A stretch of DNA of 55,328 nt, from positions 1-55,328 of the IMG/VR virus record IMGVR_UViG_3300049491_000841. One strand, 5' to 3'. How positions within the stretch are numbered: the first letter of the stretch is position 1; the number at the start of each line of letters is the position of its first letter. The DNA is from a virus. The notes beneath the pieces were generated by a model, which searched no databases, was not told the origin of the DNA, and saw nothing but the letters and a program-made list of their open reading frames with translations. Position numbers and translations under genes: made by a program. This document shows positions 3,758-38,585 of this stretch, one piece after another.

Positions 3758-5115
3758 TGAATACGCTTCCGCTATCCGCTGAATGTTGCCCTCCCTGTTG
3801 CGACACTGAGACAGTCTCAGTGCCAGGGCCGAAAGGCGATCCCGGTGCTGATTGCACTCCCTGCGAAAACGGTATTGATGCTTTCACACTGAGCGTTGAC
3901 AGCTTCGATATGCCAGGGCTGGAGGGCGACACACCTTCGATTGAAGTTCTCGATTCGCGATGGATGGTTTCAGGACAAATCGTTTATGTCGAGAGCGCCG
4001 GTTGGTTTCGAGTACTTTCCAAAGCCGATTCCACTCATGTAGTTCTTCGAAATCTTGAAACAGCAGGAGGCAGGTACGACGAGAACGCTGCTCCAGGCAC
4101 TCCCATCGCGCCAGGCCAGGCGATCTCCCCTGGAGGCTTGCAAGGCCAGGATGGCACAAATGGCACTGACGGCACAAACGGCACCAATGGGATCGACGCC
4201 TTCACGGTTACAACTGCTGACTTCACTCAACCTGACGGAACAGGAGGAACTCCGAGCGTAGTTGTCGAGGTTGCGAGCAGTCTCTGGATTGGAGTTGGTC
4301 AAATCATCTACGTTCAAGGCGGAGGCTACTACGTAGTGACTGCGCTTACAGATCCAACGCACGTCACGCTTTTGAATCTGGAGGACGGAAGCGGCGCTTA
4401 TAGCGGGAACTCCGCCCCTGGAAACACTGTAAGCGCAGGATCAAATGTAACCGCTGGAGGACTTCAAGGGCCATCTGCATCAGGAGCGGTAAATGCCTCG
4501 ACAGCTCTTCTCTCCGACGTGCAAGCCAGTGGGGATCCTTCTCAGACCCCTGCATTTGGAAGCTGGCAGACACTGGAGTTCAACACCGTGCTCGATCCTG
4601 ACAGCATGTTTGTTGTCGCTGCGGGGAACCAGTTTGAGCTTCTTCCGGGACGTTACGCAATCAGCGGATTGCTTTGCGGAGAGCAATGCCAGATGCGTAC
4701 CCGCATCCAGCGAATAGGCGATGCGACAACGGTGTTGCGAGGAATCCAAATTCACACATTCAATAATGCGGGATCGGTCGTAAGCATAAACGGATGGATA
4801 GATGCTAGCGCGGGTGATCTATTTGAATGGCAGTACTACTCGATCAACGATGGCGGTGGTGCTACAAATCTTGGTCTTCCGATGGCCACCGGCGACACTG
4901 AAATCTACAAAACTCTACAATTCACGCGCCTGTCAACTGGCCCGGCATTCATTGGAGATGTATCGGCTGAAGGCGACAACTATTGCTTCCACGGAACACC
5001 TCCCAACCAGATTCTTAAGCTTACCAACCTTTCCACCGGCTTGTTCAATCAGATCAATTCTTTTGGCATGGACGGAGTTCAAGATGTGACCTTGGATGTA
5101 GGAGGACCTTGTTAA
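3757..5115 (+). CDS. Collagen-like appendage protein with duplicated domain
   Basis: 452 residues. A short collagen-like stretch (GPKGDPGAD) is followed by a domain of about 95 residues, a second Gly-x-x run (GQDGTNGTDGTNGTNG), and a second copy of the same domain; both copies start NGIDAFT and contain GQI.YV, THV.L.NLE, APG and GGLQG. A separate beta-rich domain (about 255-405) and the 47-residue C-terminal module shared with the preceding protein follow. Collagen-like repeats form trimers in phage fibres, so a trimeric head or tail fibre is likely. Starts by TGATG coupling and ends directly before the next gene. Confidence 0.7.
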   Translation: MNTLPLSAECCPPCCDTETVSVPGPKGDPGADCTPCENGIDAFTLSVDSFDMPGLEGDTPSIEVLDSRWMVSGQIVYVESAGWFRVLSKADSTHVVLRNLETAGGRYDENAAPGTPIAPGQAISPGGLQGQDGTNGTDGTNGTNGIDAFTVTTADFTQPDGTGGTPSVVVEVASSLWIGVGQIIYVQGGGYYVVTALTDPTHVTLLNLEDGSGAYSGNSAPGNTVSAGSNVTAGGLQGPSASGAVNASTALLSDVQASGDPSQTPAFGSWQTLEFNTVLDPDSMFVVAAGNQFELLPGRYAISGLLCGEQCQMRTRIQRIGDATTVLRGIQIHTFNNAGSVVSINGWIDASAGDLFEWQYYSINDGGGATNLGLPMATGDTEIYKTLQFTRLSTGPAFIGDVSAEGDNYCFHGTPPNQILKLTNLSTGLFNQINSFGMDGVQDVTLDVGGPC

Positions 5116-7530
5116 ATGTCTGTTCGTGCCACGGCACTTTCGAGCGATGGATTCCAGGTAATTTCGAAAGGCGTCCAAAGTGGGCTTCCGCCCAACACGC
5201 TCCCTCGTGATCAACTGGCGTGGCTGGTCAATGGCACAACGCGCAACGGGTTCCCTCGCCAGCGTCCAGGCTGGTCCAAGCGCGCGCTGACCGGCGATGC
5301 CATCACGACCGGTCTCTTCCAAGGCGCAGGGATATTCAAGCACGCCAATGAGCTTGTTCTCTCTCGCGCAGGGAGAATTTACGCAATCAACCTGTCTTCT
5401 TACGTCGTTCGCGAACTCACTGATCCCGCTGATCGCAACTCGCCAATCCTTCGCCGGGCCTGGTTCTGCGAAGGAGCGGGTTTCGAATTCGTTCAGGACA
5501 ATCAGGCAAAGTGCTTGATTTACGATGGCGCAAATATGCGCCGCTCCGACCCATCGCTCTTGCAGGTCCCTACTGGTTCTTGCATGGCTTACGCCAGCGG
5601 GAGGCTTTGGGTTACGTTGCCGGGGGCGGTCACCTACGCAGGCAGCGATCTGGTCTATGGAGATAGCGGTACCGCCGCCTACGGGCGCAGGGACGCAATC
5701 ACATTTTTCAAAGAGAACGTTCTTTACAGTGGCGGAGGAGCTTTCGGAATTCCATTCGACGCGGGCGAAATCACAGCGATGGTGCCACTCGCACAAACTG
5801 ACACTTCGCTGGGTCAAGGGCCTCTTCAAGTGTTTACTACAGGAGGTGCTTTCTCGGTTAACGCGCCGTTTGACCGCGCTACCTGGGCACTGGTGACGTT
5901 TCCAGTGCAATCTGCCTCGCTTCTCGGCGCTGGATTTCTCTCCGACTGGGCAGCCAACAACGTCAACGGTGACATTTGGGGTCGAGCGGTGGACGGAGTT
6001 CGTTCGTTCCAGGTCGCCCGCCGCGATTTCGGAACTTGGGTTAACGCGCCTTTCTCACAGGAAGTAACTCGTGCCCTCGAAAACGACACTCGCGACTTTC
6101 TTGGCTGGTCTAGCGGAGCGCTTTTTGACAATCGCCGGATTCAAACCATAGCGCCTTACAGTGACTACGATAACGGCATCCTGCACCGAGGACTTGTCGT
6201 GCTCGACTTTTACCCGCTGGGAGGCATGGCTTCTCACGTCTCCGCGCCTGTTTGGGATGGTGAATGGAGCGGCCTGCCGATCCTTCAGGTGCTTGGCGCG
6301 GTCATAAACGGCCAGGAACGTTGTTTTATCATCGCTTTAGGTGCTGGCGAAGACATTCAGCTTTGGGAAATTAGTCGTGATTCAAACTATGACAACGATG
6401 GTGCAACTGATCGGCATATCTCCTGGCAAATTGAAGGCGCATCCTATAACTGGCCTGATGCAGGTTGGGGCCTTAAGCAGCTAGAGTTTGGGGATACTTG
6501 GTATGATCAACTTCAGGATGAGGTTACTTTCAGTCTTTATTTTCGGCCAGATCAAGAACCTTGCTGGCAAGAATGGCATTCGTGGAGTTCCTGCGCAGTG
6601 AATAAGACCTGCGAAAACCCGGTTGATCCTGACACCGGGTGCGCGTCGGCACCTCCAAATTTGCAACCGCAGTATCGAGTGCGACACAAGTTTCCTCAAT
6701 TAGTCAACGTCTGTAATCCAATTACCGGAAAGCCTTATCGCCGTGGATACGAGTTTCAACCCCGCCTGGCTATTCAAGGCCCATGTAGGATCAAGAAGTT
6801 CCGCCTGTGGGCCAGCGACGTTCCAGAAGAGCCGGTCGGTGGATGCCTCGATGACAGCGTGTGCAAGACGCTTGACTGTTGCCTTCCTGATCCTCTCAGC
6901 TACATGATCGAAGACTTGGGTTGCCAAGGATCTCCAAACATTGAGTCGTTTGCAGTTGATCCAGAGGAAATCAACATAGGCGATTCCGCTCTGATTTCTT
7001 GGGGTGCAATTACAAATTCCAGCTCAGCTTCTATCGATCAAGGAATTGGATCAGTCACCACCAGTCCTGGATCTGTATCCGTCAGTCCAACGGTAACGAC
7101 TACTTACACTATTTCTGTGCAATGCGGTGCTTCCATTGTAACTCGTTCTGTTACAGTTTTCGTTGATCAAGTTCCACCTCCTGTGCCACCGGTTGTTTAT
7201 GTGCCGGACGATGGCCTTCCTGCAATGTCTTGCAGTCCATCCGTATTTGAATGGCCCTGGCTTGAAACTGAACATTTTGTGCGTTATCCGAGCAGCGGAA
7301 ATCATGCAGATGATCCGAATTCGATCCTCGATCCTGATCTAATCTCTTGGTGGGCTTCTCAAGTTGAAGCGGCTTTTCTTGCGGAGATAACAACCAGCAC
7401 ATCGCACACCCTTTTTTGGCAATGGTCTGAAGCGAGTGATTCCTGGAATGCCTTCCAACTGTGGAGCACTGGATCTCACATTCACTACATAAGTCCAGGC
7501 TGGACAATCGCTGTGGCTTACTGCGAATAG
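5116..7530 (+). CDS. Large tail-tube or stopper-like virion protein with Ig-like domain
   Basis: 804 residues starting immediately after the previous stop. Residues 1-450 are beta-strand rich with repeated blade-like units (LPRDQLAWLVNGT, RPGW, FCEGAGFEFVQDN, YASGRLWV), resembling proteins of podovirus tail tubes such as T7 gp12-type or P22-type stabilising proteins. Residues 610-690 form an Ig-like domain ending in TTTYTISVQCG. A proline-rich linker and a C-terminal domain follow. Cysteines cluster around 495-560. Together with the 363-residue protein at 8934 it probably builds the tail tube; remote similarity only. Confidence 0.55.
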   Translation: MSVRATALSSDGFQVISKGVQSGLPPNTLPRDQLAWLVNGTTRNGFPRQRPGWSKRALTGDAITTGLFQGAGIFKHANELVLSRAGRIYAINLSSYVVRELTDPADRNSPILRRAWFCEGAGFEFVQDNQAKCLIYDGANMRRSDPSLLQVPTGSCMAYASGRLWVTLPGAVTYAGSDLVYGDSGTAAYGRRDAITFFKENVLYSGGGAFGIPFDAGEITAMVPLAQTDTSLGQGPLQVFTTGGAFSVNAPFDRATWALVTFPVQSASLLGAGFLSDWAANNVNGDIWGRAVDGVRSFQVARRDFGTWVNAPFSQEVTRALENDTRDFLGWSSGALFDNRRIQTIAPYSDYDNGILHRGLVVLDFYPLGGMASHVSAPVWDGEWSGLPILQVLGAVINGQERCFIIALGAGEDIQLWEISRDSNYDNDGATDRHISWQIEGASYNWPDAGWGLKQLEFGDTWYDQLQDEVTFSLYFRPDQEPCWQEWHSWSSCAVNKTCENPVDPDTGCASAPPNLQPQYRVRHKFPQLVNVCNPITGKPYRRGYEFQPRLAIQGPCRIKKFRLWASDVPEEPVGGCLDDSVCKTLDCCLPDPLSYMIEDLGCQGSPNIESFAVDPEEINIGDSALISWGAITNSSSASIDQGIGSVTTSPGSVSVSPTVTTTYTISVQCGASIVTRSVTVFVDQVPPPVPPVVYVPDDGLPAMSCSPSVFEWPWLETEHFVRYPSSGNHADDPNSILDPDLISWWASQVEAAFLAEITTSTSHTLFWQWSEASDSWNAFQLWSTGSHIHYISPGWTIAVAYCE

Positions 7531-11586: not shown

Positions 11587-12025
11587 TCCGCAGGTGGTCG
11601 AGCAGCCATCTTTGCACGAGTTCTGCCGTGAAGTCTGCCTTGGCAACTCCGATGCGATGGACTTTTGCAATTCCTGGTTCATTTACTGCCATGCCATTGA
11701 CGATCTGATCGACGATAACGAGCGCCCCAAGCCGGAGCGTCTTCTGGAAGTCTTCATCCAAGCCAACGTTCTGTTCTCCTGCGCTTTCTACGTCGCCTTT
11801 CATGTCTCCCTACAGCCCATTGTTTTGCTCATCACCAATGCCTATGCCGACAGCGTGGCCTGGGAAGCGTCTCCTGAACCTCATCGACGCGCCATCGCTG
11901 ACGTGATACGCTGTTGCGGTAACGATATGTTTTTCGCCGTAGCCATGATTTGCGGAGGTTGGAAGCACGCCCGCTCGCTCAGCCCGCGCATTCGGGAACG
12001 GTCGTGGATTTTGCAACACGAATGA
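11567..12025 (+). CDS. Helical acidic-motif protein (DDLIDD family), virion-linked
   Basis: 152 residues from the ATG at 11567 (an in-frame ATG at 11549 adds six). All-helical, with HAIDDLIDDNERP near residue 45, SVAWE near 100, and IRCCGNDMFFAVAMICGG near 118. These recur together in uncharacterised phage proteins coded next to internal virion genes. The acidic motif superficially resembles the metal-binding DDxxD of prenyl-transferring enzymes, but the protein is much shorter. Function unknown. Confidence 0.6.
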   Translation: MPQTQFDPQVVEQPSLHEFCREVCLGNSDAMDFCNSWFIYCHAIDDLIDDNERPKPERLLEVFIQANVLFSCAFYVAFHVSLQPIVLLITNAYADSVAWEASPEPHRRAIADVIRCCGNDMFFAVAMICGGWKHARSLSPRIRERSWILQHE

Positions 12026-12026
12026 T

Positions 12027-13397
12027 ATGGCACTGAATACGCAACTGATCGCCCCGATTGGAAAGGACTTTGAGTTCCCGCAAGGACAGGACAGCCTAGG
12101 CGCGTTCTTTGGTGGCGTCACCAGCGGTTACGCATCGGCACAAGCAGGTAACGAACGCCGCGCCACCGAGAAACAAATCAAGAGCGATTACACCTCAATG
12201 TTCGGGAAAGGCCCATCCCGCGACGAACTCAACGAGCAGCTCAAGTCACGAGGCATCCAGCCAGGAAATTATCTGACCGACTTCGCTCGCGGTTATCAGG
12301 GTATCCCGGCTTCACGGAAGGCTCTTGGCGATCCAATGTTCGGCCTGAATGCCGAGCATCAATCCTTGGAGAACCAGCAGCTTCAGCAAACCAACACCCT
12401 GCGCGACCAGCTCTCCAAAAACGCTGGCGACATCGTTCATCAGTTCGGAAATCTCAGCGACACTGAGTCCAGGCTAAAGTTCCTCCAAGACCATGCTGGA
12501 ATCAGCCTCACTCCTGAAGGACAACACCTGTTTAGCACCCTTACCAATATCACAGCAGGTCTGGGCAAGGTCGAAGCTGCCACTGCGCTTGGCCAGGCCA
12601 AAATTAGAGACGCCAAACATGCCGCTGACTTGATGGAATACGGTTTTCGACTTGATCAACCGGATACACGCCCGACTGCGGAGAAAAACTTTCAACTGAA
12701 CAAGGTGATTCTACCATTGGCGGATAAAATGGGAGTTCTTCCGAATGACATTCCGAGTGATTGGTTCGACGCCAGCGGCATTGCTGACTTGAGCAAGGTG
12801 ATGACTGGACTAGCCACGATGCCGAAACAAAATTTCAGTCCCGTAGATTTTACAAATATAAAACCCACGCCAATGTTGGATGACAAAGGCGATGTCATCG
12901 CTTTTGGGCTTCCAAACGGCAGAGGAGGAATTCATTACGTCACGCCGGGGCAGGGTGGCCAGGTGACGTTCGGAGTCGCACCCAACGGTCAGCGCTATGT
13001 CACGACCGGGAAAGGAATCCACCTTCTGCACGACATTGAGCATGAGGCGAAAGTTAAAGTCGCCGTGACTGGATTGAACGATGTGAATCAGCGGATTCGA
13101 GATCTCGAATCCAGTACTCGGTTGAAGCCCGAAGAACGCACCAAACGTTTGGACCCGTTGCTGAAGCAAAAATCCATTTTGGAGAGTACTCTGAAGGCTG
13201 CATTGCCGTCATCCGATCCCAGCCCAGCCATCACTCCAAGCACTGAAGTAAGTCCTGCCTTTGAAGTTCCTGTTGCTGCACCGGGAGAACCTATTTTCAA
13301 AACTCGTGACGCGGTAAAAGGGGCTTTCAACGCTGGCAAACTTTCCAAGGAAGAAGCCATCACGATTCTCAACGAACAATTCGGACTTCCAAAATGA
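12027..13397 (+). CDS. Internal virion protein candidate
   Basis: 456 residues, mostly helical and Gln/Lys/Glu-rich, starting one base after the preceding stop. The C-terminal 60 residues are a Pro/Ser-rich linker followed by a short helical segment (GAFNAGKLSKEEAITILNEQ). No enzymatic motif was seen. Order and composition, between connector proteins and the 1009-residue protein, suggest an ejected core protein. Confidence 0.5.
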   Translation: MALNTQLIAPIGKDFEFPQGQDSLGAFFGGVTSGYASAQAGNERRATEKQIKSDYTSMFGKGPSRDELNEQLKSRGIQPGNYLTDFARGYQGIPASRKALGDPMFGLNAEHQSLENQQLQQTNTLRDQLSKNAGDIVHQFGNLSDTESRLKFLQDHAGISLTPEGQHLFSTLTNITAGLGKVEAATALGQAKIRDAKHAADLMEYGFRLDQPDTRPTAEKNFQLNKVILPLADKMGVLPNDIPSDWFDASGIADLSKVMTGLATMPKQNFSPVDFTNIKPTPMLDDKGDVIAFGLPNGRGGIHYVTPGQGGQVTFGVAPNGQRYVTTGKGIHLLHDIEHEAKVKVAVTGLNDVNQRIRDLESSTRLKPEERTKRLDPLLKQKSILESTLKAALPSSDPSPAITPSTEVSPAFEVPVAAPGEPIFKTRDAVKGAFNAGKLSKEEAITILNEQFGLPK

Positions 13398-17782: not shown

Positions 17783-17853
17783 TGGAAGGGCGTGATGGAT
17801 TCGAACCATCATCTAACAGATCACGTTTGCTTTGCCGATTAAGCTAACGCCCT
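17783..17853 (-). tRNA. Atypical tRNA, probably Asn(GUU), with encoded CCA
   Basis: On the minus strand the ends form a perfect 7-bp acceptor stem (AGGGCGT / ACGCCCT), followed by a discriminator U and an encoded CCA (17785-17783). A D arm GCTT/AAGC with GG in the loop and a canonical T arm (GATGG, TTCGAAT, CCATC) are clear. The middle contains CTGTTAG, a proper anticodon loop for GUU. However, the anticodon stem is imperfect and shares bases with the T stem, so the variable loop is essentially missing; the body is only 67 nt before discriminator and CCA. Either a degenerate or an unusually minimal tRNA. Confidence 0.65.
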
Positions 17854-26169: not shown

Positions 26170-26725
26170 ATGCGGGCATGGAATTCCCAGAGATGACCTT
26201 TCCGGTTGAGCTACGTGGCACCTATGGCCAACAGACACGGTTGTCCGCGGTAGGCGGACCTCAACTGGGAACACTTACCGCAGCGCTGGTGGCTGGGCAG
26301 TAACTTTGGACCATTTGCTCGGCGTTTCGCCCGTTGTGGGGGCCACCCTTACAGGCGGTTTGGACTTGGATCGGGTTGGTACCCGAAAGCCGGTCCCCGT
26401 ACGTGGCGTGATCGTCAGCAACCTCGTGCAACACCTGCGAATTATTGAGAGGCTGGGGTTTTAACCCGGTAGCTTCAGCCCGCGGTGTGGAAAAATAAAG
26501 CCGGTGCTGGGTGAACCCAAACACCGGCTGTCGGGCGACTGGGGAGCCGATAAAACAAATAGTCGGCGCAGTGCCATAAGCCCGGAAAAATCCGTCCGGG
26601 ACGGAAAAGAATAGGCGCCGGATTTCTCCCGGCGCCTTTACTGTGTCCCTGATCGGACGTGTTTGACGGACCCCACCAACTGGGTTGTCACCGACCAGGA
26701 AACTGAAATTTATTCCGCCAAACAC
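26170..26725 (-). ncRNA. Putative large structured non-coding RNA
   Basis: About 555 bases between convergent genes, dense in strong stems: GTCCGC/GCGGAC (loop GGTAG) near 26245; TCGGGT/ACCCGA near 26375; AGCCGGTG/CACCGGCT enclosing GGGT/ACCC near 26500-26530; CCCGG/CCGGG near 26590; GGCGCCGG/CCGGCGCC near 26615-26637. A leftward promoter at 26732-26760 faces it, so minus-strand transcription is favoured. A 154-codon minus frame exists but has no recognisable domain and spans the hairpins. Size and phage context recall ornate phage RNAs such as GOLLD or ROOL, but identity to either is not shown. Confidence 0.5.
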
Positions 26726-26731
26726 ACCGGC

Positions 26732-26760
26732 AATAAATGCCGAGTGCGTTAGAACGTCAA
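26732..26760 (-). promoter_or_regulatory. Leftward promoter for the structured region
   Basis: Minus strand: TTGACG (26760-26755), 17-bp spacer, TTTATT (26737-26732). Start expected near 26725, at the edge of the hairpin-rich region. Confidence 0.5.
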
Positions 26761-29304: not shown

Positions 29305-29579
29305 ACTTAACCTGCGAATCCTGCGGAAACTATACAATCATGAAACCTTACCAACCGAAGGCCGGAGACCAGGCATTGGCCACTCTCGGCCCGGACTACG
29401 CACCCAACGAGCGCGTGAAAGTGACCATCATGGGAGCCGACAAAATCCCAGATGCCTGGGTCTGTCGTGACGACGAAGACCGAACACTGATCGTGCGCAC
29501 CCGGAAACTCTCGGCGCTATCAGTTCCGAGAGCTAAACGTTGTTCTTTGAGCGGTGTTCTCTTGCCGTGCAACCGATAA
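29301..29579 (+). CDS. Small zinc-knuckle protein running into the first stem-loop element
   Basis: 92 residues from an ATGA-coupled start. The N-terminus CESCGNY is a zinc knuckle; the middle (QALATLGPDYAPNERVKVTI) is beta-rich. The last 16 codons are encoded by the left arm of stem-loop element 1, so the natural C-terminus may have been altered by insertion of that element. Confidence 0.5.
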   Translation: MNLTCESCGNYTIMKPYQPKAGDQALATLGPDYAPNERVKVTIMGADKIPDAWVCRDDEDRTLIVRTRKLSALSVPRAKRCSLSGVLLPCNR

Positions 29580-29698
29580 CAAGGGGCACGGGGAAAGGCA
29601 GTGAAGGTTGGTATGCAATGCTGGGACGCTGGCAATAAGCGCAACCAAATGAAGTAACTGCGAAATCAAGGGGACACCGCTCAGAGAATAGCCACAAA
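29532..29698 (+). ncRNA. Long stem-loop element 1 of 4
   Basis: Starts with the shared GCTAAACGTTGTTCTTTGA and ends with TCAGAGAATAG. Arms 29543-29557 and 29674-29688 pair over 15 bp with one G-U. The upper stem GAGCGGTGT/ACACCGCTC differs from the other copies but remains paired. The interior has CCGTGC/GCACGG and GGTTG/CAACC stems. Adjacent to element 2 with one base between. Confidence 0.75.
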
Positions 29699-29699
29699 A

Positions 29700-29840
29700 A
29701 CGTTGTTATTTGAGTGCTGCCGTCCGGTACAATGCTAGCGTTGGTTCCTTATTGCCATCGCTCTTGCAAAGTGAGAATCCGGTTTACCTGATGATACAGG
29801 ACTCAGGCGGCAGCACTCAAAGAATAGCGTGAATAAAATC
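29700..29840 (+). ncRNA. Long stem-loop element 2 of 4
   Basis: Starts ACGTTGTTATTTGAG and ends CTCAAAGAATAGCGTGAATAAAA. Arms 29706-29722 and 29808-29824 pair at 16 of 17 positions; upper stem GTGCTGCCG/CGGCAGCAC is unique to this copy and fully compensated. A 13-codon GTG-initiated frame follows (29829-29870) and stops inside element 3. Confidence 0.75.
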
Positions 29841-29865
29841 GGCCTTGGCCATTTACGAATGAAAC

Positions 29866-30010
29866 GCTAAACGTTGTTCTTTGAATCGGGCGCAGGCAAT
29901 CGCATGCTGTGTGCTGGTAGGAGCAATCCCTGATTGATGCGAAGTTCCACAGGGGCACTCTAGCGCCAGCACACAAATGCGCCCGACTCAGAGAACAGCG
30001 TGAAGAAAAT
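29866..30010 (+). ncRNA. Long stem-loop element 3 of 4, with internal pseudoknot
   Basis: Arms 29871-29894 and 29978-30001 pair at 23 of 24 positions. Inside, GTGTGCTGG (29909-29917) pairs with CCAGCACAC (29966-29974), CCCTG (29928-29932) with CAGGG (29950-29954), and ATGCGA in the resulting loop (29937-29942) can pair with TCGCAT 5' of the stem (29900-29905), giving a pseudoknot. The right arm contains the GTG of the next small gene. Confidence 0.78.
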
Positions 30011-30245
30011 CATCCCTATGACCCGACGAATCGAATCAGATGCTATCGCTCCACACAAGAAACTGCTCGGTCGAAGTCTGCCTTCTACGAAGTATGGTGC
30101 TTGGATTGTGGATCGAGTTAGCGACCAAGTTTCCGGGAGATCGCGACTCGTAACGGAGAATTTGAAGGGCGAACAATGGCTCTGGACAGAAACTCTGATC
30201 TCGATGTTTGAGGTTGTTGATAGTGACGGTGCAGTTGGCTCTTGA
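30000..30245 (+). CDS. Small hypothetical protein between stem-loop elements
   Basis: 81 residues from a GTG in the right arm of element 3 (VKKIIPMTRR); the ATG at 30018 (MTRRIESD) is an alternative. Mixed alpha/beta (KYGAWIVDRVSDQVSGRSRL). No family recognised. If the GTG is used, the long stem would sequester the start and could control translation. Confidence 0.45.
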   Translation: MKKIIPMTRRIESDAIAPHKKLLGRSLPSTKYGAWIVDRVSDQVSGRSRLVTENLKGEQWLWTETLISMFEVVDSDGAVGS

Positions 30246-30289
30246 CAAAAATCGCGCTGTGTGAGAGAAAAGAATTGTTGGTGCCAGTG

Positions 30290-30482
30290 TGAAAACTGGT
30301 TTAAGGTTAAGCGACTTTATATGAGCTTCCTGCTCAGGACGATGCCCGACTCTGGGCCATCGGGCTTCACCTTAAAGCTTTTTCACCCTGAGCAGGATTT
30401 TCCTTTACCAACCTCGTGGCCTCCTTCCGCTAATGCTGCGGCAACGGGGCTTAAAACGGCTGGCGCGGTAAACCAAGCCAGC
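30290..30482 (+). ncRNA. Pseudoknot-like structured element
   Basis: TTTAAGGT (30300-30307) pairs with ACCTTAAA (30369-30376), while TCCTGCTCAGG (30328-30338) pairs with CCTGAGCAGGA (30387-30397), crossing the first helix. GCCCGA/TCGGGC (30344-30365) forms an internal hairpin and GCTGGC/GCCAGC (30459-30482) a 3' hairpin directly before element 4. A 75-codon GTG frame (30261-30485) overlaps but has no recognisable domain. Confidence 0.5.
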
Positions 30483-30645
30483 TAAACGTTGTTCTTTGAA
30501 TCGGGGGATGGTGGAACTTGAGAATAGACACGGGGAGTCGCGCTCCCTGAGTTAAAATAGGCATAGGGCTGTTGAAGCTGAAGCTGAAATTACTCGTGCA
30601 GGTGCGAAGCCTGCTCCCCCGACTCAGAGAACAACGTGAAGAAAA
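30481..30645 (+). ncRNA. Long stem-loop element 4 of 4
   Basis: Arms 30486-30507 and 30616-30637 pair at 21 of 22 positions. Interior hairpins GGGAG/CTCCC (30533-30547) and GCAGG/CCTGC (30598-30614) have loops containing TCGC and GCGA, which could kiss. Followed by CGTGAAGAAAA as in element 3; a 29-codon GTG frame begins there. Confidence 0.75.
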
Positions 30646-34261: not shown

Positions 34262-34464
34262 TGAAAACTATTGCTGAACTCTACGGAGACAAGGCTGGCC
34301 CGGTAATGTGGAACCCGTGGAACAAAGTTGTACAGGATCATCGTGACGGCACGATTCATAAAAGAGCCACCAATAAAGTTAGAAAGTTTCTGGGACTATC
34401 TACACCTTGGACTCCATATTGCGCTGACATCGATACTCGAACTCCCGGAATTCACTTGAAATGA
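34261..34464 (+). CDS. Small hypothetical protein in the secreted cassette
   Basis: 67 residues from the ATG overlapping the previous stop (TAATG). Begins MKTIAELYGDKAGPVMWNPW; basic middle (RATNKVRKFLG). No signal peptide. ATGA overlap with the following large gene. Confidence 0.5.
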   Translation: MKTIAELYGDKAGPVMWNPWNKVVQDHRDGTIHKRATNKVRKFLGLSTPWTPYCADIDTRTPGIHLK

Positions 34465-37400
34465 AAACCCTTCTCGCATCTCTCTTTTGCCTCGCCTCAC
34501 TGACGCTCGTCGCCGCACCCGCCAACGACGACTTCGCCAATCGCATTGATCTCGTTAGTGGCGGTCAGATTTCCACGACCGGCGCTAATGTCGGTGCGAC
34601 GCACCAAGTCGGTGATCCAGTAGTTAATGGCCCGACTACAACTTCAGTTTGGTGGGCTTGGACCGCTCCGTTTAGCGGCCCCGTCACCATCAGCACGTTA
34701 GGATCGAGTTTCGATACCATGCTGGCTGTGTGCGTTGGGTCTGTAGTTACGAACCTCATAACCGGCAAGACTAACGATGATTTTCAAGGTTTTACCAGCC
34801 AGGTGAGTTTCAACTCAGTCAGTGGTGTTCATTATTCGATCATGGTAGCTGGTTACAATGGAGCTAGTGGATTGATAAATCTAAACATCATGCCAGCTAC
34901 CAGCGGCGGATGCGTTTTTTCGTTCGTTCCAGACAGCAAGGCATTCTCCTACACCGCCACTAACGGGACCATCGCTGTCACTGCCACTACTGGATGCGTA
35001 TGGTCCGCAACTGCGTTCGATTCCTGGATTCATATCACTAGCGGAAATACCGGCAGTGGTAACGGCACAGTTTCTTACTCAGTTGACGTGAATACGACTC
35101 CTGTATCCAGATTTGGAACGATAGGTCTTGCCGGATCGGTCTTTGCGGTTAATCAGTCAGGCGCTCCAGGCTGCATTTATTCACTGTCTCCGACAACTTT
35201 TAACACTGTCGCAAGTCCGATCACCAATAGTATCTCCATGACCGCCACCACCGGTTGCGCATGGACAGCTACTCCAAACGCTTCTTGGATTACAATATCC
35301 AGCGGCACCAACGGCACAGGCAATGGCACTATTACCTACGTGCTGGCGACCAACATATTGAGCAATTCTCGTTCAGGAACGATTACTGCCGCGGGACAAA
35401 CTCATACCGTGACGCAGGCTGGTAATGTGCCCTGCACATTTTCTATCTCGCCATCCACTGCGCCATTTGCTGCCAGCGGCGGCACTTCCAACATCGTTGT
35501 CAGTACTCTTAGCGGCTGCACATGGACTGCATCTAGTCCTGTCAGTTGGGTCACGTTTTCGACTACAAATGGCACTGGCAATGGTTCTGTCACTTACACA
35601 GTCGCTACAAATGTAGTTACATTGCCAAGAAGCACGATTCTTACTGTTGCCCAAAATCCATTCACGGTAACTCAGTCTTCCGCAGCCTGTTCTTATGCAC
35701 TTACTTCCTCCAGTTTTTCTGCACCGGCGATTGCTTCGTCAAGCACAGTCGGCGTGACGACCACTACTGGTTGTGGATGGACCGCTGTTTCAAACGATTC
35801 TTTCATCACAATCACCGCAGGCACTAGCGGAAGCGGTAGCGGAACAGTTAGCTTCACTGTCGCCGCTAACATCAATACAACCACCCGCAGCGGTACTATG
35901 ACCATCGGAGGTCAAACTTTCACGGTAAGCCAAGCGGCTGCCGCATGTATTTATTCAATCTCGTCAACCAGTGCTCATTTTAGCTCTGCAAGCCAACCCG
36001 GTATTATTACTGTTACGGCTGGAACTGGGTGCGCATGGACGGCAGTTGCAAATGACGTATTTATTACGATTGACAGTGGAACCCCAGGTTCTGGAAATGG
36101 TTCGGTTGGTTATACGGTATCTGCAAATTCTTCAACAAACTCGCGCATAGGCACAATTACTGTGGCGACAAAAACTTATACTGTAACTCAAGATGGAACT
36201 ACTCCGTGTGCTTATTCTATTCTACCAACCAGTTGCGCGTGCGCGGCAACATCAGGAAATGCGTCAATAGCAGTTACTGCAAATACTAATTGTGTTTGGA
36301 GTGTAACTTCTAGCGATCCTAGTTGGCTTACCTTTTCTCCGCCTTCTGGTTCTGGAAATGGAACAGTTGTTTATACTATAACTTCAAATCCATCGTCAAT
36401 TCCTCGCACAGCCACTCTCACCATTGCCGATAAAGTGTTCACCGTGAATCAATCCGGGATTGCTTGCACATTTACTGTCAGTCCGACTAGTGCTTCCTTT
36501 ACTTACGTTGGTGGCATCGGGACAGCGACAGTTACGGCAGCCGCTGGATGCGCTTGGTCCAGTATTAGTGACAGCACATGGCTTGTAATTACCGCGGGCG
36601 CAAGTGGCACCGGAAATGGCTCTGTGTCTTACACGGTATCCTCAACTACTGCTACAACAAATCGAACAGGCCGTTTGACCATCGCCGGAAAAGTTCTGAA
36701 TGTGACTCAAACTGGCGCTCCATGCACCACAAGTATTTCACCAACTAGCGCAACTATATCCGACATAGGAGGAGGTGGAATTATTTCTATTACTAAAAGT
36801 GATCAGTCCTGCACTTGGACTGCTATTACAAACCAGACTTGGATCAGTGTTTCGCCGAGTAGCGGAACTGGTAATGGTTCAATAACATTCTCGGTATTGC
36901 CGACTAATCAGCAAATTACTCGGAACGGAACGATTACTATTTCAGGCCAGGTGTTCTCGATCACTCAAACCGGCGATACCACTATTCCTGTCGTCACCAT
37001 CACCGCTCCTACTGCCAGTGCCACGATTAGCAATGTTTTCACCCTGACTGCAACTGCGACAGATGACGTAGCAGTATCGCGAGTAGATTTCTATCGAGAT
37101 GCGGCCACTTTTCTTGGATCGGTTGTTGCGTCTCCTTATGCACTTCCATTCAACACGACCAATGTCGCGAATGGATCGTACACGTTTTATATGCGTGGAT
37201 TTGACTCCGCAAACAACCAGGGAAGCTCCGCCACAAACACTGTAACCATTTCTAACTCTGCCCCCGTCACCAGCAATACATGGGTTTATGGTTACGGAGG
37301 AACTGGAACAGATATTGGAAGTGTAATCGCCATGGATGGTTCCGACAATATCTACGTAGCGGGGGTCTTTACTGGATCGGCATCGTTTGGAGGTTCTACT

Positions 37401-38585
37401 CTGACCAACGCAGGTGGAACTGATCTGTTTCTTGCCAAGTACTCCAGCGCTGGAATCCACCAATGGTCCGTGCGTTACGGGAATACCGGCAACGAAACTG
37501 TGCAAGCTATGACCTTGGACTCCACAGGAAAAATCATAATCGCTGCGCACTTCAGCGGTCTAGCCAATTTCGGTGGAACAAACTTTGTAACCACTCCATC
37601 AGGTGTGGCTATCGCAAAATACTCACCTACAGATGGCTCTCACATCTGGTCGGAAGGGTATTATGGAACGTCGTCAGTGCTATCAGCGGGAGGAATTACT
37701 ACTGATGCGGCTGACAACGTTTTAACTACAGGATATTTCCAGGGAACTATCAACCTAGGCACTACGAATATGACGAACGCCGATGGCACGGATATGTTTG
37801 TCGCGAAATATTCTACGCTGGGTGCTCCCATCTGGTCGATAACATATCCACGAAATGCTGCCGACGACATCGCACAGGATATAGTGTGCGACAGTAACAA
37901 TAATGTGTTCGTGACTGGTTATACTCTTGGTTATATTGATTTCGGAGGTGGCTATATCATCAGCGACACCGGGTCTGATGTGTTTGTTCTGAAGCTGAAT
38001 AGCTCAGCGGCATTTCAATGGGCACGCGGCTATGGAGGACCCAGAGCACAGCGCGCTTTTTCAATGGTGATAGATTACAGCGAGGACCCAACCAATGGTC
38101 GATTGATAATAGCTGGAGACTTTTATCAAGCTGCTAACATTGGTGGGATAACAATGACAGCCCCTGCTCTTTCTGCGTTTCTAATGAAGCTCAACACGAC
38201 CACTGGTGATCCATTTTGGGCGCGTAGAACCGGAGGCAACCTGGTTTCTAAAACCAGCAACATTCTCGCACTAGGACCTTCTGGAACATTTCGATTAACT
38301 GGTTCAGTAGATAATTCAACTAAAGATTTCATCACCGCCACGATTACGCCTACTGGTTCTGGTGGTGGAAGTGACATCTTTATTTCCAGCTACAACCCCG
38401 CAGGTGCTTTGAATTGGGTTCAAGGTTACGGGAGCATCAATTCTGACATTGGAAATGCTATTGCAGTTGACAGCACCGGTTATGCAACCGCCACCGGTTA
38501 TTTTGTCGGGACAGCTTCTTTTGGTGGAATTCAACTGATCAGCCAAGGTTCCCAGGATGTATTCCTTATTCGAGTCGCCCCATGA
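34461..38585 (+). CDS. Giant secreted adhesin-like protein: 8 BACON repeats, Ig-like domain and SBBP repeats
   Basis: 1374 residues. A Sec signal peptide (1-19) is followed by an N-terminal domain opening APANDDFANRID (20-145), of the pre-peptidase C-terminal type. Eight BACON-like repeats of about 86 residues follow (about 149-838), each starting with Cys, carrying GC-x-W-T/S near the middle and GNG.V.Y before an R-x-GT/A-I turn; the paired cysteines suggest disulfides outside the cytoplasm. A bacterial Ig-like domain (841-939) and SBBP-type propeller repeats (940-1374) complete it. BACON domains bind glycans or mucin-like surfaces and occur in crAss-like phages. Role in adsorption, biofilm or host surface is inference. 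Confidence 0.85.
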   Translation: MKTLLASLFCLASLTLVAAPANDDFANRIDLVSGGQISTTGANVGATHQVGDPVVNGPTTTSVWWAWTAPFSGPVTISTLGSSFDTMLAVCVGSVVTNLITGKTNDDFQGFTSQVSFNSVSGVHYSIMVAGYNGASGLINLNIMPATSGGCVFSFVPDSKAFSYTATNGTIAVTATTGCVWSATAFDSWIHITSGNTGSGNGTVSYSVDVNTTPVSRFGTIGLAGSVFAVNQSGAPGCIYSLSPTTFNTVASPITNSISMTATTGCAWTATPNASWITISSGTNGTGNGTITYVLATNILSNSRSGTITAAGQTHTVTQAGNVPCTFSISPSTAPFAASGGTSNIVVSTLSGCTWTASSPVSWVTFSTTNGTGNGSVTYTVATNVVTLPRSTILTVAQNPFTVTQSSAACSYALTSSSFSAPAIASSSTVGVTTTTGCGWTAVSNDSFITITAGTSGSGSGTVSFTVAANINTTTRSGTMTIGGQTFTVSQAAAACIYSISSTSAHFSSASQPGIITVTAGTGCAWTAVANDVFITIDSGTPGSGNGSVGYTVSANSSTNSRIGTITVATKTYTVTQDGTTPCAYSILPTSCACAATSGNASIAVTANTNCVWSVTSSDPSWLTFSPPSGSGNGTVVYTITSNPSSIPRTATLTIADKVFTVNQSGIACTFTVSPTSASFTYVGGIGTATVTAAAGCAWSSISDSTWLVITAGASGTGNGSVSYTVSSTTATTNRTGRLTIAGKVLNVTQTGAPCTTSISPTSATISDIGGGGIISITKSDQSCTWTAITNQTWISVSPSSGTGNGSITFSVLPTNQQITRNGTITISGQVFSITQTGDTTIPVVTITAPTASATISNVFTLTATATDDVAVSRVDFYRDAATFLGSVVASPYALPFNTTNVANGSYTFYMRGFDSANNQGSSATNTVTISNSAPVTSNTWVYGYGGTGTDIGSVIAMDGSDNIYVAGVFTGSASFGGSTLTNAGGTDLFLAKYSSAGIHQWSVRYGNTGNETVQAMTLDSTGKIIIAAHFSGLANFGGTNFVTTPSGVAIAKYSPTDGSHIWSEGYYGTSSVLSAGGITTDAADNVLTTGYFQGTINLGTTNMTNADGTDMFVAKYSTLGAPIWSITYPRNAADDIAQDIVCDSNNNVFVTGYTLGYIDFGGGYIISDTGSDVFVLKLNSSAAFQWARGYGGPRAQRAFSMVIDYSEDPTNGRLIIAGDFYQAANIGGITMTAPALSAFLMKLNTTTGDPFWARRTGGNLVSKTSNILALGPSGTFRLTGSVDNSTKDFITATITPTGSGGGSDIFISSYNPAGALNWVQGYGSINSDIGNAIAVDSTGYATATGYFVGTASFGGIQLISQGSQDVFLIRVAP

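Follow-up and report, generated by a model that had tools for sequence, protein, structure and literature searches.

Four intercistronic stem-loops with an rRNA-operon-type boxA in their 5' arms: candidate small-RNA cassettes in a phage genome

The DNA analysed here (the window, 55,328 nucleotides) is a complete virus record, IMG/VR IMGVR_UViG_3300049491_000841, with a 127-base terminal repeat. Between 29.5 and 30.7 kb, amid small genes on the plus strand, it contains four intercistronic stem-loops on that same strand, called U1 (29536-29697), U2 (29699-29835), U3 (29870-30010) and U4 (30485-30645); an earlier note on this DNA had placed four such units here, and all four were found. The 3' end of an ORF extends into U1. 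A small plus-strand ORF of 75 amino acids without a Pfam family (30018-30245) begins 17 nt past the U3 stem and precedes an untranslated, moderately structured plus-strand stretch between this ORF and U4 (30246-30480, fold z -2.9), in which neither a boxA nor an Rfam family was found and where TTTAAGGT/ACCTTAAA might form a pseudoknot across CCTGCTCAGG/CCTGAGCAGG. Elsewhere in the window, the region 26450-26750 folds strongly and is apparently non-coding (sliding z of about -3 to -6, strongest on the minus strand), with a terminator-like hairpin at 26613-26637. A tRNA on the minus strand (17786-17853), missed by ARAGORN, is the window's only Rfam match at gathering level (51 bits), and a 1374-aa protein (34461-38582) combines several BACON domains with a Big_7 domain, a layout known from tail or adhesion proteins of gut and environmental phages.

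A scan of 60-240 nt spans ranked U1-U4 above every other hairpin of the window, with scores of 50-58, where the next best scored 37 and the best of the shuffled windows 42. By strand-neutral ungapped scoring, U1 pairs 29539-29564 with 29667-29692 (26 bp) around a cargo of about 102 nt, U2 pairs 29700-29726 with 29804-29830 (27 bp) around about 83 nt, U3 pairs 29871-29894 with 29978-30001 (24 bp) around about 83 nt, and U4 pairs 30486-30508 with 30615-30637 (23 bp) around about 106 nt. The MFE z-scores against dinucleotide shuffles (200 per element) were -7.0, -6.6, -8.6 and -7.0 respectively, and not one of the 200 shuffles folded as well in any of the four cases. The arms had earlier been described as pairing over 15-24 bp; the pairing was confirmed, the stems being somewhat longer at 23-27 bp, and all four have the near-perfect duplex of at least about 20 bp taken to define an RNase III site. 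The flanks that were said to be shared by all four units do not extend to U2, which is without the GCTAAA flank (CAAAAACG), nor to U1, which directly abuts U2 and therefore has no CGTGAAGAAAA tail. The arm sequences are confined to these units and absent elsewhere in the 55 kb.

No close relatives of the phage were present in INPHARED or among the IMG/VR matches listed, and blastn detected no copies of U1-U4 in INPHARED. Whole-arm DNA patterns gave no match listed in one scan of IMG/VR and eight in another, all due to chance. Scans with TerL and DUF7694 as single proteins returned no relatives among the matches listed; an alignment search with DUF7694 reached at least 80 diverse phages, L018 being the only related one among the matches listed, and a TerL motif pattern retrieved at least 21 distant TerL relatives. 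A motif-blind hairpin scan of the genomes of these TerL relatives picked out a homologue in the phage G004, whose TerL is about 24% identical to that of the window phage and whose conserved proteins are about 24-37% identical. This intergenic hairpin of 132 nt (L137:8690-8821), on the minus strand, which is the gene strand, begins just past a stop codon and is non-syntenic with U1-U4. Its arms, 5' TGTTGTTTGAAA and 3' TCAGACAACA, contain a U-G wobble and an A-C mismatch identical to those in U3 and U4. A covariance model (CM) built from U1-U4 alone placed it at the top of its 20 kb (E 0.005, 15.1 bits, the next match having 6.6), the CM search under default filters having missed it. The interiors of U2, U4 and the G004 hairpin fold only slightly more stably than their shuffles (z -2.0, -1.3 and -1.2).

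The joined arms of U1-U4 and the G004 homologue were aligned for covariation analysis. Both sides have changed in 10 of the 23 pairs, with 93% of cells paired, and the covariation score of 0.639, compared to 0.206 in shuffles, was reached by none of 500 shuffles and fell to at most 0.13 in every slid register. The compensatory changes noticed earlier in the upper stems of the window copies are thus real, also with G004 added. Rfam 15 gave no match to U1-U4 at the gathering cut-off and chance-level matches only in permissive mode; the Rfam families as well as attC, ToxI and pRNA, the latter three by general knowledge, were considered and dropped. The covariation, the homologue and the lack of a gathering-level match support the idea, put forward in the earlier note, of a selected RNA fold outside known classes. 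A 13-nt pairing between the interiors of U1 and U2 was judged too weak.

Beyond that first reading, free covariation turned out to be a property of the upper stem only, where almost all covarying pairs lie. In the lower stem of U1-U4 the two arms behave differently, with 1 of 15 positions variable in the 5' arm and 6 of 15 in the 3' arm. Three of the latter changes, in columns 37, 42 and 44 (G to A, C to T and A to G), fall within the paired boxA segment described below and leave the pairing intact, since each either makes use of a G-U pair or does away with one; the remaining three affect the outermost bases, where U1 differs. Given the covariation above and the constancy of the lower 5' arm, selection acts on the shape of the upper stem, through its pairing, and on the sequence of the lower 5' strand.

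Ends that are conserved around a variable middle would also be expected if the units were mobile DNA hairpins, of the attC-like or miniature inverted-repeat kind, with lower arms recognised by a recombinase and captured interiors that differ. The non-syntenic position of the G004 copy, the overlap of U1 with an ORF 3' end and the exact duplication of another intergenic hairpin of 122 nt in the phage L093 fit such an origin, which we nevertheless consider improbable: the lower arms are in perfect register with the covarying upper stems, the proteins scanned included no recognisable integrase or transposase, and by inspection the attC boxes RYYYAAC/GTTRRRY are absent, the ends reading GCTAAACGTTG ... 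CAACGTGAAG. Moreover, the wobble pairs favour one RNA strand. Over all U1-U4 stems the plus strand has 11 G-U against 3 A-C (P about 0.03, the copies not being independent), and this excess points to RNA, with the plus strand as the better RNA strand.

The constant part of the lower 5' arm, which the first reading had left unnamed, resembles the boxA of rRNA (rrn) operons. U1 (29540-29550), U3 (29874-29884) and U4 (30489-30499) have, on the plus strand, TTGTTCTTTGA, a match to the rrn boxA, and U2 has a variant with one change, TTGTTATTTGA (29703-29713); in the G004 hairpin, one change in boxA is compensated on the opposite side (C-to-G/G-to-C). The exact consensus TGTTCTTTGA occurs in the 55 kb only in U1, U3 and U4, with 0.05 occurrences expected per strand; it was read from rRNA leaders of Verrucomicrobiota and Bacteroidota. 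In Methylacidiphilum, the rRNA leader has TTGTTCTTTGATAAC, containing the exact phage boxA, directly after the rrn promoter, and TGTTCTTTGAAAACT is found in the 16S-23S spacer, before 23S. The 10-mer with at most one mismatch was found in 9 of 18 other Verrucomicrobiota leaders, compared to 1 of 18 shuffled ones, and in 11 of 14 Bacteroidota leaders. From this sequence likeness, the assignment of the lower 5' arm of U1-U4 to an rRNA-operon-type boxA is well supported. In Methylacidiphilum the boxA is followed, about 20 nt on, by the 26-bp leader-trailer processing stem round 16S, so that the phage units may be regarded as a miniature version of this arrangement, in which a boxA, a long stem, a structured RNA and a closing arm follow one another.

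Among 177 hairpins from outside the window, a boxA arm was present in one, that of G004, compared to 0.44 for permuted motifs, which rules out boxA as a general feature of the long intergenic hairpins of unrelated phages (L022, L093, L084 and L064). Searching GTDB with a pattern of boxA paired to a distal anti-boxA gave no certain case, the matches listed being chance ones without a continuing stem, and 388 Verrucomicrobiota and 396 Bacteroidota genomes gave a handful of matches, none convincing when judged by eye. A CM search of 145 Verrucomicrobiota genomes yielded two matches with E about 0.02, which were taken as chance, since the alignment of one shows no paired arms at all and that of the other disrupts the boxA pairs. 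Six boxA hairpins from three phages are known so far among the matches listed, one of them obtained via the boxA pattern, and the family is small and phage-specific within what was searched.

Long intergenic hairpins of other phages were recorded along the way. The contig L022, which encodes a GroEL-like protein, has four of them (1260-1375, 4621-4773, 6201-6351 and 11964-12055). Those at 1260 and 4621 have common lower arms, TTGTTTATTRAAA/TTCTAGTAAATAA, and differing upper stems, as in the window; the TTGTTTATTRAAA arms loosely resemble boxA, and GGTATGCAAT, shared with L022, was judged too weak. In L093, a hairpin RNA-like intergenic element of 122 nt occurs twice with 100% identity (5951-6072 and 6467-6588), and a different long hairpin (7143-7275) adjoins the duplicated element. 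In L067 (5950-8170), repeated intergenic blocks of 69-92 nt alternate with paralogous RIGNYV-type genes in a cassette-like manner.

The main rival to a boxA cassette is a plain RNase III site. U1-U4 could be ordinary sites of the kind known from T7 early RNA, at which RNase III would cut the operon mRNA of the phage, the boxA likeness then being a coincidence or due to descent from recent duplicates and the interiors by-products. Stems of 22-28 bp are suited to RNase III, the elements occupy intergenic gaps of co-directional genes, and unrelated phages have long intergenic hairpins of comparable size that are without boxA. Such a site, however, does not need a fixed lower-arm sequence, yet the letters are kept here while the adjoining upper stem is fully exchanged, and these letters are those of the rrn boxA and recur in G004, despite conserved proteins of about 24-37% identity. 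We therefore regard this explanation as a minority one, though worth keeping in mind. The RNase III sites of T7 type known from polycistronic mRNAs of phages are likewise intercistronic and of RNase III length; U1-U4 differ from them in enclosing a structured RNA of about 80-106 nt and in having a lower arm conserved to the letter.

As to the nature of the cargo, the boxA/anti-boxA pattern scan of IMG/VR led to the phage-like contig L337, singled out among the matches listed by the continuation of its stem. At 890-1035 on the minus strand, boxA arms (TGTTCTTTGAATT / AATTCAGAGAACA) clamp a tRNA and run without spacer into its acceptor stem; the cargo scores 38.1 bits as an Rfam tRNA (cut-off 29) and has an insert of about 40 nt in the anticodon region. 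As this contig was fetched with the pattern, its boxA arms are there by selection, which does not apply to the tRNA and the continuing stem. In the window, the U4 cargo (30502-30623, plus strand) has a candidate acceptor stem CGGGGGA/TCCCCCG, a D-like arm, an insert of about 32 nt and a T arm (P 0.001), GCAGG-TGCGAAG-CCTGC (30598-30614), next to TCCCCCG, and its permissive ARAGORN score of 98.8 was reached by none of 1400 cargo shuffles. U1-U4 gave no tRNA match at default settings nor in permissive Rfam, and a tRNA signal was not found in U1, U2, U3 and G004. On sequence grounds the cargo of copy 4 thus looks tRNA-like and those of copies 1-3 do not, so that, counting L337, at least one cargo of this type has to be added to the first reading.

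Hence, it might be asked whether all units are tRNA genes, or genes for tRNA-like RNAs, that have diverged and carry extended acceptor stems, serving for example as decoys against tRNA-cutting defences, with boxA as a signature of stable-RNA leaders. The Rfam-level tRNA with its insert in L337 and the likeness of U4 beyond all shuffles suit this explanation; the absence of a tRNA signal in the other three units and in G004, together with a U4-L337 cargo alignment no better than shuffles, makes it unlikely. Compared to phage tRNA genes, the likeness lies in the Rfam tRNA of L337 and the acceptor/T-arm layout of U4, and the differences in the acceptor being extended by boxA arms, the insert in the anticodon region and three of the four cargos not being tRNA-like.

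We therefore turn to the reading of U1-U4 as boxA-headed "mini-rRNA" cassettes of RNase III length, Rho-proof in transcription and then cut out as small RNAs, to which, by analogy, we give an even chance. A bacterial rRNA operon likewise has a boxA and then a two-turn stem of leader and trailer enclosing a structured RNA, as checked in Methylacidiphilum; in contrast, the phage units enclose about 100 nt of RNA other than rRNA, the boxA lies inside the stem whereas it is single-stranded in rrn leaders, and the phage has four tandem or near-tandem units in an operon. In lambdoid nut sites (boxA-boxB) and in the leaders of CRISPR arrays, boxA keeps Rho off untranslated RNA, and the likeness here, from general knowledge, is that a phage or host uses boxA against Rho. 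Unlike lambdoid nut sites, U1-U4 are without a hairpin of boxB size bound by N protein, and the boxA, which stays single-stranded in the nut sites of lambda, is captured here by a distal 3' arm; unlike both nut sites and CRISPR leaders, there is one boxA per cargo RNA.

Each unit would consist of a boxA at the base of the 5' arm, a stem of about 22-27 bp and a distinct structured RNA of 80-106 nt, with a 3' arm folding back to pair with the 5' side of the stem, boxA included. Behind a passing RNA polymerase the boxA would stay single-stranded over the 100-130 nt that precede synthesis of the 3' arm, and in that interval NusB-S10, with NusA/NusG, might load on it and hold Rho off this almost untranslated part of the operon of about 1.1 kb. 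The emerging 3' arm would then capture the boxA and complete a two-turn duplex of RNase III length, from which the cargo RNA would be excised, the flanking mRNAs thereby being separated. The fold, the covariation, the boxA identity, the arm asymmetry, the plus-strand bias and the homologues were observed directly; NusB-S10 loading, Rho escape, RNase III cleavage and a function of the cargo we infer from knowledge of rRNA operons. What speaks against the model is that the boxA ends up base-paired in the finished hairpin: in the full-length MFE folds of U1-U4 it is paired, and it is free only before transcription of the 3' arm. The proteins scanned included no recognisable cognate antitermination protein of the phage.

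The same pairing bears on the idea that the units act as decoys for NusB-S10, a flood of boxA shutting down host rRNA synthesis. Four boxA copies packed in one array would suit such a role, but a decoy would stay single-stranded, while the boxA in the finished hairpin is unavailable, and we consider this idea very improbable.

Long intergenic hairpins of a similar kind but without boxA occur in other phages (L022, L093, L084 and L064), which means that long intercistronic stems need no boxA; such stems may be a wider phenomenon of which U1-U4 are one form. More tentatively, and on balance rather doubtfully, the boxA cassette could be a general phage 'boxA clamp', of rRNA-operon design and portable, which would be loaded with varied small RNAs, tRNA-like and other, and serve to express and excise them, providing Rho-proof transcription and self-timed release. 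If true, phages would reuse the rules by which the cell makes its rRNA, antitermination combined with stem-driven processing, for small non-coding RNAs in the middle of an operon. The question of how Rho is evaded by untranslated phage RNAs would thereby become directly testable, and the pairing of a boxA with a distal anti-boxA would serve as a search signature leading to cargo RNAs without common sequence.
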